DNA of 12,545 bases. Origin: Nevskiales bacterium (lineage in GTDB: Bacteria; Pseudomonadota; Gammaproteobacteria; Nevskiales; Nevskiaceae). The notes beneath the pieces are model-generated. The model worked only from the letters and a program-made list of their open reading frames with translations. It was not told where the DNA came from and did no database searches. Made by a program: the position numbers and the translations under genes. Positions 1 through 5,832 of the stretch are shown here, piece by piece (position 1 is the stretch's first letter; every line of letters begins with the position of its first letter). The DNA lies in the NCBI GenBank assembly GCA_022616655.1, contig JAKEEJ010000033.1, forward strand, positions 1 through 12,545. Direction: 5' to 3'.

Positions 1-90
1 GGGCTCGGTGCCTCGCGCGGACTGTGTTTCCAGGGTCGTGCAACCCGTCAACAGCCCGGAGAGCAGCAACACCCGGAGTGCACGCTTCAT
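1..90 (-). CDS. pilF: PilF/PilW-like type IV pilus assembly lipoprotein (5' end only)
   Basis: Only the first 30 codons are in the window; the gene continues beyond base 1. The ATG (90..88) overlaps the rlmN stop codon in an ATGA junction, and no clear ribosome binding site precedes it, so translation is probably coupled to rlmN. The N-terminus is a lipoprotein signal peptide: Met-Lys-Arg, then a hydrophobic stretch, then the lipobox LLTGC with the lipidated cysteine at residue 17. No TPR repeat is reached. The name rests on position: in Pseudomonas and relatives the gene directly after rlmN encodes PilF (PilW), an outer-membrane TPR lipoprotein needed for PilQ secretin assembly. That it is a lipoprotein is seen directly; that it is PilF is inferred from gene order. 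Confidence 0.72.
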   Translation of the reverse strand, partial: MKRALRVLLLSGLLTGCTTLETQSARGTEP

Positions 91-1196
91 GAATGCACCG
101 TATGAACGGGAATATCGCGCAGACGCCGGCGCTGGCGGTTGTGCACGCGGCCGACCAGCTGTCCACAGGCGGCATCAATGTCATCGCCACGGGTTTTGCG
201 CGTGGTCGTAAGAATGTCCTTGGCATACAGAACGCCGGCAAAGTTCCGGATCTGCTCCAGTTTCGAGCGACGGTATTCCGTGCCGGGGAAGGGGTTGAAT
301 GGGATCAAATTCACCTTGGCGGGCAGTCCCGCCAGAAGCTTGGCCAGCTGGAGGGCGTGCTCCGTCCGGTCGTTGACACCCTCCAGCATCACGTACTCGT
401 AGACGATATGTGCTTTCCGGTCTTTCTGCTCGGTGTAACGCCGGCAGGCGGCCATCAATTCCGCCAGGGGATATTTGCGGTTGATCGGCACCAATTCGTT
501 GCGCAGTTCATCATTGGGCGCATGCAATGACACGGCCAGTGCTGTATCGCAATCTTCGCGCAGGCGATCCATGAAAGGAACCAGGCCGGACGTGGACACG
601 GTTACGCGCCGCTTGGAGAGGCCAAAACCATGGTCGTCCAGCAGGATGCGCAACGTCGGCAGTACCTCTGCATAGTTGGCCAGCGGCTCCCCCATGCCCA
701 TGAACACGACATTGGAGATGGCACGGGCCGTCTGAAAATTTCCACCCAGCGCCTTCGATGCAAACCAGACCTGCGCCACGATTTCGGCCGTCGTCAGGTT
801 GCGTGAAAAACCCTGCGCACCGGTCGAGCAAAATGAACAGTCCATGGCACAGCCGACCTGCGAAGAAATGCACAAAGTGCCGCGGCTGCCCTCGGGGATG
901 AATACCGTCTCGACCGCGTTCCTTGCATCCACTCGCAGGACCCACTTGCAGGTGCCGTCCTGCGAGACCTGTTCGGTGAGCAGTTCCGGCGGACGAATTA
1001 CAAAATGGCCCGCCAGCTGTGCGCGTAAATCCTTTCCCAGGTTGGTCATTGCGCCGAAATCATCCATGCCGCGGCGGTAAATCCAGTGCATGACCTGGTC
1101 GGCGCGGTACGGGGGTTCGCCCATGTCCAGAAACCGTGCCCTCAGCGCAGTGCGGTCGAGACCAAACAGATTCACAGGAGACGCGGCCGCCATCAT
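87..1196 (-). CDS. rlmN: 23S rRNA (adenine2503-C2)-/tRNA (adenine37-C2)-methyltransferase RlmN
   Basis: Radical-SAM enzyme that methylates C2 of A2503 in 23S rRNA and of A37 in some tRNAs. Numbered from the ATG at 1196 (369 aa), the CX3CX2C cluster motif is C116, C120, C123. The two methyl-transfer cysteines are C109 (TLCISS) and C344 (AACGQL), equivalent to E. coli C118 and C355. A GMGEP segment at 167-171 is the SAM-contact motif. All key residues are present and the length is normal for the family. The frame is open further upstream, but that extension would run into ndk and lacks family character; the ATG ATG pair at 1196/1193 lies 4 nt after the ndk stop with a GGAG about 11 nt upstream, so I start there. 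It is co-directional with ndk, as in Pseudomonas, and its stop overlaps the next gene. It needs a [4Fe-4S] cluster, which fits its place downstream of Fe-S assembly genes. Confidence 0.97.
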   Translation of the reverse strand: MMAAASPVNLFGLDRTALRARFLDMGEPPYRADQVMHWIYRRGMDDFGAMTNLGKDLRAQLAGHFVIRPPELLTEQVSQDGTCKWVLRVDARNAVETVFIPEGSRGTLCISSQVGCAMDCSFCSTGAQGFSRNLTTAEIVAQVWFASKALGGNFQTARAISNVVFMGMGEPLANYAEVLPTLRILLDDHGFGLSKRRVTVSTSGLVPFMDRLREDCDTALAVSLHAPNDELRNELVPINRKYPLAELMAACRRYTEQKDRKAHIVYEYVMLEGVNDRTEHALQLAKLLAGLPAKVNLIPFNPFPGTEYRRSKLEQIRNFAGVLYAKDILTTTRKTRGDDIDAACGQLVGRVHNRQRRRLRDIPVHTVHS

Positions 1197-1200
1197 GACA

Positions 1201-1632
1201 TTACCGGCTCCGGGGGCAGAGTTCCGTTGTGCGGAAGAAGTAACGGATCTCGGCTTCCGCGTTGCCCGGCGAGTCCGAACCGTGTACCGCGTTCTCGTCA
1301 ATGCTGCTGGCAAAGTCGGCGCGGATCGTGCCTCGGGCGGCCTTTTTCGGATCGGTCGCCCCCATGATGTCGCGATGTTTCAAAACCGCGTTCTCGCCTT
1401 CCAGCACCGACACCAGAACCGGACCGCGGGTCATGAACGTCACCAGATCTCTGAAAAACGGACGCTCCTTGTGAACCGCATAAAAACCTTCCGCTTCTCC
1501 GGGCGTCAGGCGTTTCATGCGTGCCGCCACAATCCGGAGTCCGGCCTTTTCATAGCGCGTGTAGATTTCGCCGATGTGGTTCTTGGCCACGGCATCGGGC
1601 TTGATAATGGACAGGGTACGTTCTAATGCCAT
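1201..1632 (-). CDS. ndk: nucleoside diphosphate kinase
   Basis: Cytosolic enzyme that transfers the gamma phosphate of ATP to nucleoside diphosphates through a phosphohistidine. The 143-aa product has the family's usual length and begins [15 protein letters not shown], as in other bacterial Ndk. The active-site segment NAVHGSDS carries the phosphorylated His117, the same number as in E. coli. The start is the ATG at 1632 and not the in-frame TTG 12 nt upstream: the TTG is only 2 nt from the GGAGG, while the ATG gives the canonical N-terminus, although its spacing to GGAGG (14 nt) is long. rlmN begins 4 nt after its stop. A sigma-70-like promoter lies in the 106-bp gap before it, so ndk-rlmN-pilF may be transcribed apart from the Fe-S genes. 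Confidence 0.97.
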
Positions 1633-1708
1633 GGGTGAATACAAAACCTCCGGAAATTACACAAGGAACCGCGCTGGAACGCGTCAAAAGAAGTCCTCAA
1701 ATCAAGGA

Positions 1709-1738: not shown

Positions 1739-2077
1739 TCAATCTACTGGTTTTTCGAGTGAAAAGCTCTCGCCACAGCCACACAAAGCCTGGGCCTGGG
1801 GGTTGTCAAACTTGAAGGTTTCGCTGAGACCCTCCCGGCGATAATCAAGCGTCAGACCTTCCAGCATGGGCAGTACGCTGCGCGCCACCACCACTTTGGC
1901 GCCGCACGTTTCAAAAACCGAATCGTCTGCCGCCAGATCGTCCGCAAAGTCCAGGGTATAACTGTACCCGGAGCAGCCGGACGGTTTGACACCCAAACGC
2001 AGGCCGACACCGTGCCCGCGCTGCTGCAATTGATCGGTGATGCGCTTTGCGGCCGCCGCCGTCAGTCGGATGGTCAT
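1739..2077 (-). CDS. iscA: A-type iron-sulfur carrier IscA
   Basis: 112-aa A-type carrier that receives or stores Fe-S clusters (or iron) and passes them to client proteins. The three ligand cysteines are all present: C35 in SGCSGYSY, and C99 and C101 in the C-terminal CGCGESF. Segments LRLGVKPSGCSG and EGLSETFKFDNP align readily with E. coli IscA, so IscA is favoured over ErpA, though the A-type subfamilies are close and this is not certain. The ATG overlaps the stop of the upstream desulfurase/IscU-like gene (ATGA), with AGGA about 11 nt upstream. The product ends a few residues after the CGCGESF motif, as usual. It completes a short cysE-desulfurase-desulfurase/IscU-iscA series and is followed by ndk. 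Confidence 0.92.
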   Translation of the reverse strand: MTIRLTAAAAKRITDQLQQRGHGVGLRLGVKPSGCSGYSYTLDFADDLAADDSVFETCGAKVVVARSVLPMLEGLTLDYRREGLSETFKFDNPQAQALCGCGESFSLEKPVD

Positions 2078-3693
2078 GCAGGTCTATATCCTGGATGAAT
2101 CTGCGTCAACAGCGATTTGACCACATCTTCGCCCAGGAGTGCGGTGTGGACACGTTCCTCGGGTATTTCAAGCGCCTGGCAAATGGCCGGCGCCTTCAAT
2201 TCAGACAATTTACGGAAATCCTGGCCTACGACATGCCCCGCCAGCCAGGCTCCCACGGCGATGGTGGTCGGGCAGCCGTAGGCCTGGAAGCGAGCATCTG
2301 CAATCGTCCTGTTTCCTGCCATCTTGATGTGGAGCACCAGCGCACTGCGACTGGCAGGCGTGCTCGCACGACCGATCAGTGCCGTGCCTTCCGTAAAACA
2401 GCCGGACCGGGGAGTCTGATTGAACAGGTCCCAAACCCGGGCACTGTAGTCAAACGGCACGCCAGAGTCCTGATGGAGTCCGTTCTGACTTGCTTCTTTC
2501 TGTACCGAACGTTCAGGAGGCGCGTCACCGGTTTGTGTCGTGGACAACCGACGTAGCCGGTTGACCTGCCGGATGACCTGCCCGGCGGCCCGATCCACCT
2601 CGGCCTCGGTGGTGAAGCGGCCCAGGGAAAACCGCAGGCTGGCGTTGGCCAGCTCCTCGTCGCGACCCAGCGCACGCAACACATAGGATGGCTCGCGGGT
2701 GGCCGACGAGCAGGCCGCCCCGCTGGACACCATCAGCCCCGGCAAGGCGGCACGCAAACTTTCCCCTTCGACGCCCGCGAAACTGAGATTGAGAATACCG
2801 GGCACCCGCGACGCACCTTCACCATTCAAAAAGACATCTGGCAGTTCGGATAGCTCTTGCCACAAGCGGGTGCCCAGAAGACCCAGGCGGGAAACCTCCG
2901 CAGCCCATGCCGCCTCTGCAAGGCGGCAGGCTTCTCCCATGCCCACAATCTGGTGGGTCGCCAGTGTGCCGGAGCGCATTCCCTGCTCGTGACCGCCCCC
3001 GTGCATCTGCGGCATCAGCCGTGCACGGGGTTGCTTGCGCACAAACAGCGCCCCAATTCCCTTGGGACCGTACACCTTGTGCGCCGTGACCGTCAGCAGA
3101 TCCACCGGCACTTCACGCAAACAGACCGGCAGCTTTCCGATCGCCTGCGCCGCATCCACATGGAACAGGACGCCACGTTCGCGCAGTTTCGGCGCCAACC
3201 GGACGACATCGTTGATCACGCCGGTTTCATTGTTGACCCACATCAGCGACACCAATACGGTCTCGGGCGTCACCGCGTCCAATACCTGCTCCGCGCTGAT
3301 CGCGCCGCCGGCCTGCGGTTTCAGGTACGTCACGCGGATACCCTGCGGAGACGGTCGCGTCTCCAGATAACGACAGGTATCGAGCACCGATTTGTGCTCG
3401 GTACGGGCGGTGATCACATGCCGACCGCGCGAAGCATAAAACTCCAACGCGCCCTGGATGGCCAGATTGTTGGATTCCGTGGCGCCCGAGGTCCAGATGA
3501 TTTCTGCCGGCGTGGCCCCCATCAGGGCCGCGACCTGTTCGCGCGCACGCTCAACCGCCTCGCGTGCCCGGCGTCCCTCCAGATGATCAGAGGCCGGATT
3601 GCCGTGCAGGCCGCCGGGTTTCAGAAACGGCAGCATGGCCTCGTAAACCCGCGGGTCCAGCGGCGCGGTGGCGGCGTAGTCGAGATAAATCAT
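2074..3693 (-). CDS. cysteine desulfurase (IscS/NifS) fused to a degenerate IscU-like domain
   Basis: 539-aa two-domain protein. Residues 1-385 are a class-I PLP cysteine desulfurase: MIYLDYAATAPLDP start, His100 (TEHKS), NNETG (154-158), HVDAAQ (178-183), PLP lysine K206 in TAHKVYGPKG, and catalytic Cys328 in SSGAACSS followed by PSYVLRALG. A linker of about 28 residues follows. Residues about 413-535 align with IscU/NifU-N: YSARVWDLFNQTPRSG, DARFQAYGCPTTIA, and a C-terminal ERVHTALLGEDVVKSLL. Of the three IscU cluster ligands only the middle one remains (C474). The PACGD site is PASRS (Ser448) and the IHCSILAED site is VHTALLGED (Thr517); His516 is kept. The desulfurase half looks active; the scaffold half should not hold a cluster by the usual ligands. 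The start at 3693 is chosen because it overlaps the upstream stop (ATGA) and gives the canonical N-terminus, though the frame is open further upstream. Neighbours are a second desulfurase and iscA. Confidence 0.93.
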   Translation of the reverse strand: MIYLDYAATAPLDPRVYEAMLPFLKPGGLHGNPASDHLEGRRAREAVERAREQVAALMGATPAEIIWTSGATESNNLAIQGALEFYASRGRHVITARTEHKSVLDTCRYLETRPSPQGIRVTYLKPQAGGAISAEQVLDAVTPETVLVSLMWVNNETGVINDVVRLAPKLRERGVLFHVDAAQAIGKLPVCLREVPVDLLTVTAHKVYGPKGIGALFVRKQPRARLMPQMHGGGHEQGMRSGTLATHQIVGMGEACRLAEAAWAAEVSRLGLLGTRLWQELSELPDVFLNGEGASRVPGILNLSFAGVEGESLRAALPGLMVSSGAACSSATREPSYVLRALGRDEELANASLRFSLGRFTTEAEVDRAAGQVIRQVNRLRRLSTTQTGDAPPERSVQKEASQNGLHQDSGVPFDYSARVWDLFNQTPRSGCFTEGTALIGRASTPASRSALVLHIKMAGNRTIADARFQAYGCPTTIAVGAWLAGHVVGQDFRKLSELKAPAICQALEIPEERVHTALLGEDVVKSLLTQIHPGYRPA

Positions 3694-4844
3694 GACAACG
3701 CGACACTGGGCAGGGTCACGCCAAGACCGGCCATGAGCGTGCACAAGGTTTCGACAAACTGGTCCACCTCGTTTTGTGTGTTGTCCTTGCCCACACTGAC
3801 CCGGATGGCACACAAGGCCACGTCTTGCGGAACACCCATTGCCAGCAGCACGTGACTCGCCTGATCACTGCCGCTGGCACAGGCGGAGCCCGACGAAACG
3901 GCAAATCCCTTTTTATCGAGCAGGCCCAGGAGCGTGGCGCTGTGGATGGACGGCACGGCAAATTGCACTGTGTTAGGCAGCCGGATTGCCCCGGCGCTGA
4001 AAATCCGAATGCCGGGAATACGCATCAACGCCGTCTCCAGCCTCTCGCGCAGATGGCGTGTATGGGTTTTGCGCCGGTCCAGCTCCTGCCCGGCCAGTTC
4101 GGCGGCGGCTCCAAAACCGGCAATGGCGGCCACGTTCTCGGTACCGCCGCGCAGACCCCGCTCCTGCCCTCCCCCGTGCAGCAACGGTTCCAGTTCCAGC
4201 GCACGATCGGCAATCAGCGCGCCGGCGCCCTTGGGCCCGTAAATTTTGTGGCTGGACACGCTCAGCAACTGGGCGCCGGAGGCCGCAAAGTCCAGTGGAA
4301 TCTTACCCAGCGCCTGCACAGCATCGGCGTGAAACACAGCGCCTGCCGCACGCGCCAGCATCGCCAGGCGCGTTGTATTCTGGATCACGCCGGTTTCATT
4401 GTTGGCCACCATGCACGACACTAGCGCGACCTTGCTCCGACGTAATTGCTGCTGGAACGCCGCTTCATCCACTCGCCCCTCGGCATCCACGGCGATGGTT
4501 TCCACGGCGCGTCCCTGACGCGCCAGCGCTTGCAGGGGTTCCAGTACACTGGGGTGTTCAATGGCGGAGTACAACAGCCGCCCGTGTTGTTGCTTTGCCG
4601 CGACACCCTTCACGGCGAAATTGTTGGCCTCGGTGCCGCCACTGGTAAAAATCACTTCACCGGGATCGGCGGTCACCAGTGCGGCCATCTGTGCACGCGC
4701 CGTTTCTATGGCGTCGCGCGCGGCCCGTCCGTGGCGATGCGCGCTGGAAGGGTTGCCATACGGACCGCGCAGAAACGGTGCCATGGCCTCCAACACTCGT
4801 GGATCGAGCGGGGTACTTGCATTGTGATCCAGATAGACGGCCAT
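3690..4844 (-). CDS. cysteine desulfurase, NifS type
   Basis: 384-aa class-I PLP enzyme that removes sulfur from L-cysteine, giving alanine and an enzyme persulfide for Fe-S or thio-cofactor synthesis. Motifs in order: MAVYLDHNASTPLDP, FTSGGTEANN (66-75), His97 (EHPSV), NNETG (148-152), FHADAVQ (171-177), PLP lysine K200 in SSHKIYGPKG, RGGTEN (232-237), and catalytic Cys322 in SSGSACASGSDQ followed by SHVLLAMGV. The long Cys loop and the SHVLLAMG wording are closer to NifS than to the IscS-like neighbour, so the two desulfurases seem to be old, diverged paralogues and not a recent duplicate. All catalytic residues are present. Its stop overlaps the start of the next gene (ATGA). No nitrogenase gene is in the window, so I give no nif symbol. 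Ribosome binding site weak (GGGAT about 7 nt upstream). Confidence 0.93.
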   Translation of the reverse strand: MAVYLDHNASTPLDPRVLEAMAPFLRGPYGNPSSAHRHGRAARDAIETARAQMAALVTADPGEVIFTSGGTEANNFAVKGVAAKQQHGRLLYSAIEHPSVLEPLQALARQGRAVETIAVDAEGRVDEAAFQQQLRRSKVALVSCMVANNETGVIQNTTRLAMLARAAGAVFHADAVQALGKIPLDFAASGAQLLSVSSHKIYGPKGAGALIADRALELEPLLHGGGQERGLRGGTENVAAIAGFGAAAELAGQELDRRKTHTRHLRERLETALMRIPGIRIFSAGAIRLPNTVQFAVPSIHSATLLGLLDKKGFAVSSGSACASGSDQASHVLLAMGVPQDVALCAIRVSVGKDNTQNEVDQFVETLCTLMAGLGVTLPSVALS

Positions 4845-4901: not shown

Positions 4902-4930
4902 AAAAGGCAGGGTTCACGGCTGGTTCTGCC
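4900..4930 (-). terminator. possible weak terminator at the end of cysE
   Basis: On the minus strand GGCAG (4930..4926) can pair with CTGCC (4910..4906) across a 15-nt loop that includes the cysE stop codon, and is followed directly by six T (4905..4900). The T-run is good, but the stem is only 5 bp with a long loop. It may cause partial termination before the desulfurase genes. Confidence 0.35.
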
Positions 4931-5708
4931 CCCGAACGCGAGCCCGCGGCTCCCGTTCGGACCCCTCACTGCCGAAATCGGGCAATTCCAGCTTCTTCAG
5001 CTCCAGGTCCGGCATGCGGGCATCCAACCGATGCAGAAACTTGCCCAGCTCCATGATGCGATCGTCCAGTTCGTGAATGTGATCCAGCATGGCGCCAATG
5101 GCATCGGCCACGGGATCCGGCATGTCCTGGGACAGGCCGTACGCATCAAATCCCATCTTCTTCGCCATGATCAGCAGCTTTTCCGACGGCGGGCGCGGTT
5201 CCTGTACCGCCCGTGCGGGAATACCGACCACTGTGGCGCCGGGCGGTACAGGCTTCACCACCACGGCGTTGCTGCCGACGCGCGCGCCGTCGCCCACGAC
5301 AAAAGGGCCCAGCACCTGAGCGCCGCTGCCCACCACGACGTTATTACCCAGTGTCGGATGACGCTTGCCCTTTGCCCAGGAGATTCCGCCCAGCGTAACG
5401 CCCTGGTAGAGCGTGACGTCGTCACCGATCTCGGCGGTCTCACCAATCACCACACCGGCACCGTGATCAATGAACAGGCGCCGGCCGATTTTTGCGCCGG
5501 GATGAATTTCAATCAGTGTGAACCAGCGTGCGATCTGTGATAACAACCGTCCCAGCCATTTGAAGCCGTGTCTCCACAGCCAGTGACTGAGCCGATGCGC
5601 CCAGACGGCCTTGAGGCCGGGATAGCACGTCAGCACTTCCCAGACGGTACGCGCGGCGGGATCGCGCTCGAATACAACCCGGATATCTTCGCGAATGCGA
5701 CCTAACAT
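4914..5708 (-). CDS. cysE: serine O-acetyltransferase
   Basis: Makes O-acetylserine from L-serine and acetyl-CoA, the committed step of cysteine synthesis in the cytosol. The 264-aa product starts [20 protein letters not shown], lacking the long N-terminal helical extension of E. coli CysE and resembling the Pseudomonas form. A left-handed beta-helix of hexapeptide repeats spans roughly residues 66-165, with the catalytic DH pair D81-H82 ([12 protein letters not shown]), H117 (KGKRHPTLG), and [10 protein letters not shown] closing the helix. After residue 170 a charged helical tail includes [14 protein letters not shown], also found in Pseudomonas CysE. I chose the ATG at 5708; an in-frame TTG lies 18 nt upstream. 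A TAAAAT (5741..5736) could be a -10 box about 20 nt before the start, but no good -35 is visible. It feeds cysteine to the desulfurases encoded next. Confidence 0.95.
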
Positions 5709-5832
5709 GGACGGGCTCGCCAACAAGGGCGGGTAATTTTACTCTCTGTACATGCGGGCCGTTTTCCTCCCGGCCTCTGCGGCGTGAAGCTCGCTGAGTC
5801 ATTCGGACGTGAATGGGAAGCAGAGAAAGATA

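Follow-up and report, generated by a model that had tools for sequence, protein, structure and literature searches.

An IscU-derived domain lacking the first cluster-ligand site, fused to IscS in SUF-carrying Nevskiales: a candidate partner of the desulfurase

The window (the whole 12,545-nucleotide stretch of DNA analysed here) carries a gene in which an IscS-type cysteine desulfurase is fused to a domain homologous to IscU that has lost its first cluster-ligand site. We refer to this domain, and to its unfused counterparts, as U*. The reading that we prefer, and think probably correct, is that IscU was disarmed as a scaffold after SUF took over, and was kept as a partner of IscS. The fused gene would then be a remnant of iscS-iscU from an isc operon that collapsed in SUF-carrying bacteria. 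The persistence of an ISC scaffold across an order without its cluster-making residues suggests a function for IscU on IscS apart from scaffolding.

Results

The fused gene combines an intact-looking desulfurase with an IscU homologue

The fused gene encodes 539 residues on the minus strand (2074-3693) in an open, contiguous reading frame. Its parts are listed below; residues are counted from the ATG at 3693, and C37, D39, C63, H105 and C106 follow E. coli IscU numbering.

2494..3693, minus strand: IscS-type cysteine desulfurase domain, residues 1-400 (Aminotran_5 over residues 3-369, 243.5 bits)
3076..3078, minus strand: Lys206 in AHKVYGPKG, the catalytic lysine position (AHK at 204-206)
2710..2712, minus strand: loop Cys328 in SSGAACSS (323-330); E. 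coli IscS has SSGSACTS at the aligned loop
2467..2532, minus strand: linker, predicted to be disordered, residues 388-409 (pLDDT below 50 in an AlphaFold2 model)
2077..2463, minus strand: U*, the IscU-derived domain, residues 411-539 (NifU_N over residues 417-528, 55.5 bits, cut-off 22)
2344..2358, minus strand: lost first ligand site PASRS (Ser448 for C37, Ser450 for D39)
2272..2274, minus strand: Cys474, aligned with C63 and retained
2143..2148, minus strand: His516, aligned with H105 and retained, and Thr517, where C106 is lost (codon ACC, 2143-2145)

The desulfurase part matched the E. coli IscS chain 1p3w with an E value of 3.6e-136, and its matches to IscS in the structure search span residues 1-392. 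It scored below the IscS equivalog cut-offs (TIGR02006, 505.1 versus 643.2; NF010611, 520.4 versus 548). We thus use the name IscS-type, since the best matches are IscS and the equivalog cut-off is missed. An earlier note on this DNA had called the desulfurase active-looking, and the sequence bears this out: Lys206 (AHKVYG), which we take to be catalytic as in IscS, and Cys328 (SSGAACSS) lie at the catalytic positions, so that this part of the fusion looks intact. Among 53 IscS rows compared, a strict lysine pattern matched 50 (the unmatched ones being G042 and two canonical rows), and a strict loop-cysteine pattern matched 33, the remaining 20 each showing [SA]AC.

By sequence, U* is an IscU homologue. 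A 24-sequence U* profile aligned with E. coli IscU at an hhalign probability of 99.4% (E 1.2e-21), and IscU chains in the PDB match U* at 3e-28. No IscU chain was found among the best 50 structure matches listed, all of which span residues 1-392, the desulfurase part. In the AlphaFold2 model, block means of pLDDT within U* run from 80 to 98, with 71 for the last block.

U* occupies the old place of iscU in a collapsed isc operon

The genes around the fusion are all on the minus strand:

4914..5726, minus strand: cysE, serine O-acetyltransferase (TIGR01172, 250 bits, above cut-off)
3690..4844, minus strand: NifS-like cysteine desulfurase, directly upstream (TIGR03402, 419.6 bits, below the cut-off of 530.75)
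1739..2077, minus strand: iscA (A-type carrier), directly downstream with a 4-base ATGA overlap (TIGR02011, 125.5 bits, under cut-off; TIGR00049, 107.4 bits, over cut-off)
1201..1644, minus strand: ndk, at the end of the former isc neighbourhood (Pfam NDK, 186 bits)
87..1313, minus strand: rlmN, at the end of the former isc neighbourhood (RlmN_N and Radical_SAM)

In Nevskiales, the gene order around U* is trmJ-cysE-[iscR]-nifS-iscS-U*-iscA-ndk-rlmN, or parts thereof. The intact operon in genome G170 reads trmJ-cysE-iscR-nifS-iscS-iscU-iscA-hscB-hscA-fdx-iscX-ndk-rlmN; since the gene order is the same, U* is iscU in its old place. When E. coli HscA and ferredoxin were used as queries, neither gave a match within the Nevskiales stretches around U*. 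In G026, iscA was the only gene matched beside U*.

The ATG of the fused gene, at 3693, overlaps the stop of the nifS-like gene (ATGA). This coupled NifS-like desulfurase is present in the full isc operon of G170 too, and gave no match in several stretches from family f6, nor in G010. About 1.4 kb separates iscS from U* in G006 and G017 (L082 and L044).

U* is widespread in Nevskiales, fused or separate

We sampled 61 Nevskiales genomes, the window's own included; the window's family is Nevskiaceae (f1). NifU_N matched in 54 of the 61. Inspection of the matched stretches identified 53 U* domains in an isc-type neighbourhood among 57 NifU_N places, the four dropped being canonical-looking (L058), SufU (L059 and L060) or devoid of isc neighbours (L049). 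In six more genomes, which lack a usable match (G002, G039, G045, G046, G054 and G059), an unscored U*-like ORF follows iscS. A readable U* ORF is thus present in 59/61 genomes, and in the other two (G013 and G021) the contig stops short of it. Of the 53 U*, 17 are fused to IscS, and fused and separate forms occur within one genus (for example, G003 and G031). Sixty-eight loci were returned when genome contigs were scanned with patterns for the stretches around C63 and C106; they include Nevskia, Solimonas, Hydrocarboniphaga, Stagnimonas, Stenotrophobium, Fontimonas and Sinimarinibacterium.

Three genomes of the order have a second NifU_N protein: SufU within suf operons in G037 and G040, and a canonical-looking IscU in G035. 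The latter (L058) lies at a separate locus beside NifS-like and IscS-like desulfurases, and G035 also has U*. The window's own genome (76% complete), searched for a separate canonical IscU, gave no NifU_N match besides U*. This genome (G000) is small for its family, at 1.26 Mb; other f1 genomes measure 2.1-6.5 Mb.

C37 of the first ligand site is lost throughout, and the other cysteines vary

The earlier note had read the first ligand site of the window's U* as PASRS in place of PACGD, and this reading stands in the 24-sequence alignment too, with Ser448 at C37 and Ser450 at D39. Its residue numbering from the ATG at 3693 was right, and it had correctly named Cys474 and His516 as the ligands that remain, with Thr517 in place of the third cysteine. 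C63 is therefore the only one of the three cluster cysteines to survive in the window, where the aspartate D39 has also gone. Because the window comes from a metagenome assembly, the Thr517 call rests on the assembly rather than on reads; a frameshift or assembly artefact is unlikely, as nothing interrupts the ORF, fusion also occurs in relatives, and the Thr517 codon ACC lies two base changes from a Cys codon. The HscA recognition motif LPPVK is likewise replaced in the window, by EIPEE (LEIPEERVH); LEIPEDRAH is common in its family, and a few U* elsewhere retain an LPPVK-like motif (L169, G046).

We then aligned 79 U* sequences (59 from the order and 20 from outside it) with 10 canonical IscU controls chosen for their strong scores. 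Every readable U* was taken within the order. The 20 outside copies came from weak or second matches, from the pattern scan or from inspection behind IscS, so that their loss of C37 is partly a matter of how they were picked. C37 was retained in 0/79, D39 in 6/79 (three of them f3 copies of the order, where an aspartate aligns), C63 in 51/79, H105 in 46/79 and C106 in 51/79, and each site in 10/10 controls. C37 is absent from 59/59 copies of the order as well as from all 20 selected outside copies. Recent decay of the window's gene alone can be rejected, since the loss of C37 and D39 is common to the order.

In contrast to the first site, C63 and C106 have been lost in either order: 6 of the 79 copies keep C63 only, 6 keep C106 only, and 22 keep neither. 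Within f1 (35 genomes), C63 is present in 34, C106 in 34 and both in 33; the window alone lacks C106, and G010 alone lacks C63. The statement that two of three cysteines are lost thus holds for the window and fails for its family, in which C106 is kept in 34/35. Among the 24 genomes of the other families of the order, 17 have neither cysteine, 5 have both and 2 have C106 only; the corresponding numbers for the 20 outside copies are 5, 7 and 3, and a further 5 keep C63 only. The extremes are G119, whose U* keeps D39, C63, H105 and C106 and has lost C37 alone, and G082, whose U* ORF (L197) contains no cysteine and still lies between iscS and iscA. The earlier note had suggested that a domain with a single conserved cysteine, C474, might serve as a SufE-like relay, and had asked whether C474 is invariant with the other two sites consistently non-Cys. 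We found instead a scattered loss that includes C474, an outcome that the note itself had named as refuting. No cysteine of U* is invariant; the suggested single-cysteine relay is not supported, and we reject the idea of a single-cysteine family.

A different cysteine, at U* position 74 in E. coli numbering (mostly within DWxCE; for example, L045, L053 and L120), is present in 19 of the 22 copies lacking both C63 and C106 and in 3 of the 45 with both. We do not claim a replacement role for it, because all but two of the 19 (G084 and G096) belong to a single order.

Purifying selection acts on U*

The scattered loss of cysteines, in both orders, raises the alternative that U* is a functionless relic in slow decay, tolerated in frame between the coupled iscS and iscA; we consider this rather unlikely, and it is the strongest competitor of the partner reading. 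To evaluate constraint, we computed pairwise pN/pS for 25 pairs, 24 of which reach an IscS identity of 0.78 or more; the other pair is the window and its nearest relative, G001. Median values were 0.39 for U*, 0.20 for iscS, 0.20 for nifS (a rough value, as the query matched iscS where nifS is missing, for example in G028), 0.14 for iscA and 0.16 for ndk (over 18 pairs). U* is thus less constrained than its neighbours, and its difference from IscS (0.39 versus 0.20) counts against the partner reading, as it is what an eroding relic would show.

Nevertheless, pN/pS for U* remained well under the neutral simulation. Ten f1 pairs pooled gave 0.37 (0.33-0.42), versus a neutral mean of 0.94 and a lowest value of 0.85, and three f6 pairs lacking C63 and C106 also gave 0.37 (0.25-0.51; neutral mean 0.91, lowest 0.69). 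These data demonstrate that purifying selection acts on U* even where C63 and C106 are both gone. Slow decay is further opposed by the ORF that stays readable in 59/61 genomes of the order, by the fused U* being predicted to form a well-folded domain, and by the ranks of C63 and C106 in f1, 10th and 14th of 135 columns by conservation (H105 ranks 19th, and the C37 and D39 positions 71st and 76th). The N-terminus of U* is conserved in f1 (Y3 matches IscU, and W8 and F11 depart from E. coli), and not in f6. The earlier note's view that this is not random decay is upheld, as far as decay of a single copy goes, by the order-wide absence of C37 (59/59), by the readable ORF and by a pN/pS of about 0.37 versus a neutral value of about 0.9.

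The pair that contains the window's U* ranks with the least constrained, a point in favour of slow decay. Compared with G001, its U* gave 0.62 (0.50-0.77; neutral mean 0.88, lowest 0.64), with synonymous sites near saturation in this pair, and is under weak constraint. In the same pair iscA (0.45) and iscS (0.32) are also raised, and the genome is small.

U* occurs with SUF and without matches to HscB

The HscB family (HSCB_C) gave no match in any of the 61 Nevskiales genomes, among them the window's own, which is 76% complete; the E. coli control was positive. SufB/D was found in 60/61 and SufE in 57/61, and matches to both are present in the window's own genome. That ISC and SUF exclude each other in Gammaproteobacteria has been reported before (PMC10631705).

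We extended the comparison to a class-wide draw of 124 genomes, taking NifU_N matches with E up to about 1e-39 as strong. HscB is carried by 53 of the 56 genomes with a strong match, the exceptions being G065, G088 and G180 (a 303-residue ORF), and G169 and G179 have HscB without a NifU_N match. As the strong IscU match in G065 and G088 stands without HscB, the loss of HscB alone does not force a change in IscU. In the 12 class genomes with an inspected degenerate match (including G180), HscB was found in 0/12 and SufB/D in 12/12. An iscS match lies beside U* in 11 of them; in the other, G119, U* is located between cysE and iscA with no desulfurase match beside it. We dropped G126 from this set, as its cysteines are kept and its genome has HscB, and also left out the second match of G163. 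Six further U* genomes (a Comamonas MAG, an Alcaligenaceae MAG and strain CAII-56, two Castellaniella, and a Legionellales MAG) gave no HscB match, and 2/2 canonical controls matched.

A further 39 class genomes have a mid-score NifU_N match only, and are labelled SufU-like from the score alone. Of the 30 searched for IscS, 13 matched: two contain a U*-like ORF (L216 and L219), six have no room for U* between the desulfurase and iscA, and the other five loci (L211, L212, L213, L215 and L218) have no iscA match nearby. U* therefore seems to have been lost outright in other SUF lineages, and the six genomes without room for it fit slow decay.

Discussion

With C37 and D39 gone, U* is not expected to bind iron or to assemble a cluster by the established route. 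The window has lost the HscA recognition motif as well, and HscB was not found. We propose that U* most probably remains docked on IscS and is its permanent partner, an interaction to which the fusion and the synteny point, and that docked U* may hold or tune the desulfurase for other clients, such as tRNA thiolation. This comes close to the desulfurase regulator that the earlier note had offered as an alternative. Several observations besides the lower constraint on U* speak against the partner reading: the apparent outright loss of U* in other SUF lineages, the weak constraint on the window's copy, the strong IscU matches without HscB in G065 and G088, the N-terminus that is not conserved in f6, the LPPVK-like motif kept by some copies (L169, G046) and the U* of G119, which has no desulfurase match beside it.

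Work on IscU and its human homologue ISCU2, cited here in part, narrows the options. Zinc-loaded ISCU inhibits the desulfurase, whereas zinc-free ISCU moderately raises its activity (PMC6098246). Iron or zinc binding by free ISCU2 requires the C37 equivalent, and persulfidation of ISCU2 needs the equivalents of D39, C63 and C106, with C106 as the acceptor, those of C37 and H105 being dispensable (PMC11021402). For a U* without C37 and D39, neither iron-dependent transfer nor a zinc lock is expected. The remaining options would be that it binds and tunes the desulfurase, or that C63 and C106 carry a persulfide without iron.

The second of these options would make U* a sulfur relay: the loop cysteine of IscS would hand persulfide to C63 and/or C106, and U* would pass it on to another acceptor, like SufU or SufE for SUF. 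We regard a relay as improbable as the main role. In the E. coli complex, about 4 A separates C63 from C106, and a C328-C63 disulfide is cited (PMC2854127); C63 and C106 are both kept in 33/35 f1 copies and 7/20 outside copies; the dispensability of the C37 and H105 equivalents in ISCU2 also fits. Conversely, the same paper on the E. coli complex favours C37, lost in U*, as the first acceptor, with C63 next, and 73/79 copies have lost D39, whose equivalent ISCU2 requires for iron-dependent persulfidation (PMC11021402). In addition, 22/79 copies have neither C63 nor C106, and C106, which is the ISCU2 acceptor, is missing from the window. Where both cysteines survive, U* may take up persulfide without iron; such a relay is possible there and unlikely to be its whole role, and in the window, with C106 gone, the persulfide step is probably weak or absent.

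Could U* instead retain zinc or a cluster on its remaining ligands, perhaps as a dimer? C63, H105 and C106 do occur together in most f1 copies. The C37 equivalent that free ISCU2 needs for metal (PMC11021402) is, on the other hand, absent in 79/79 U*, and of the known ligands the window retains C63 and H105 alone; we consider metal or cluster binding highly improbable.

The preferred reading, of U* as a partner of IscS, can be set against known systems. U* resembles IscU and ISCU2 over its whole domain, in its place between iscS and iscA and in the C63-H105 pair, usually with C106, and differs in lacking C37 (all copies) and D39 (73/79), in giving no HscB match, in its frequent fusion to IscS and, in the window, in the EIPEE motif. 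SufE, which shares its fold with IscU, also works as a desulfurase partner; we reject SufE membership on sequence, as the U* family profile aligned with E. coli SufE at an hhalign probability of 0.1%, and this missing link weakens the relay as well. SufU is likewise an IscU relative turned desulfurase partner rather than scaffold (PMC8593673), but SufU keeps CGD (in G037 and G040) and sits in a suf operon, whereas U* lacks the site and pairs with IscS. The window's U* scores 20.5 bits against a SufU cut-off of 92.5 (TIGR01994), a further point against the relay, and its place is between iscS and iscA. According to a review, every persulfide carrier so far described belongs to a SUF system (PMC8593673).

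The A-type domain of NfuA belongs to a domain family other than IscU. It nonetheless offers a parallel, being an Fe-S carrier domain that lacks a ligand cysteine and is kept in a fusion (PMC8593673), although its fusion is to a Nfu domain and not to a desulfurase. In Mycobacterium tuberculosis, IscS is the only isc gene, the operon is truncated and SUF assembles clusters (PMC10848736), but the cited part of that paper mentions no IscU-derived partner. Among the matches listed in open-access PMC (most subscription papers and bioRxiv lie outside it), no description was found of a degenerate IscU beside IscS in SUF bacteria, or of an IscS-IscU fusion.

Annotators should not take a NifU_N match in these genomes as a sign of active ISC. 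U* also provides natural separation-of-function variants, fused and unfused and present in cultured environmental bacteria, for probing the effect of IscU on the desulfurase; Stagnimonas aquatica and Stenotrophobium rhamnosiphilum, for example, have the fused form with both C63 and C106.

More broadly, we tentatively suggest, as a possibility that we would not yet call probable, that IscU became, in several lineages with SUF and perhaps more than once, a dedicated subunit of IscS that is no longer a scaffold (a 'pseudo-IscU'): C37 and D39 would go first, followed by drift among two-, one- and no-thiol states, the two-thiol state being able to carry persulfide. If so, loss of ISC does not always erase IscU, and can leave an ISC-derived desulfurase partner. 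We asked where U* rows fall in an IscS tree of 53 rows (22 order genomes, 19 other U* genomes, 8 canonical and 4 without U*; L167, presumably through a 250-residue filter, and G119 are left out). A single U* clade was not rejected by the AU test (p 0.148, or 0.414 without the beta-proteobacterial rows), so that repeated origin is suggested and not demonstrated. In the tree itself, U* rows fall in more than one place, the beta-proteobacterial ones grouping with canonical IscS (SH-aLRT 98). Fusion is also seen outside Nevskiales, in the Comamonas MAG, whose U* domain (L166) is joined to IscS.
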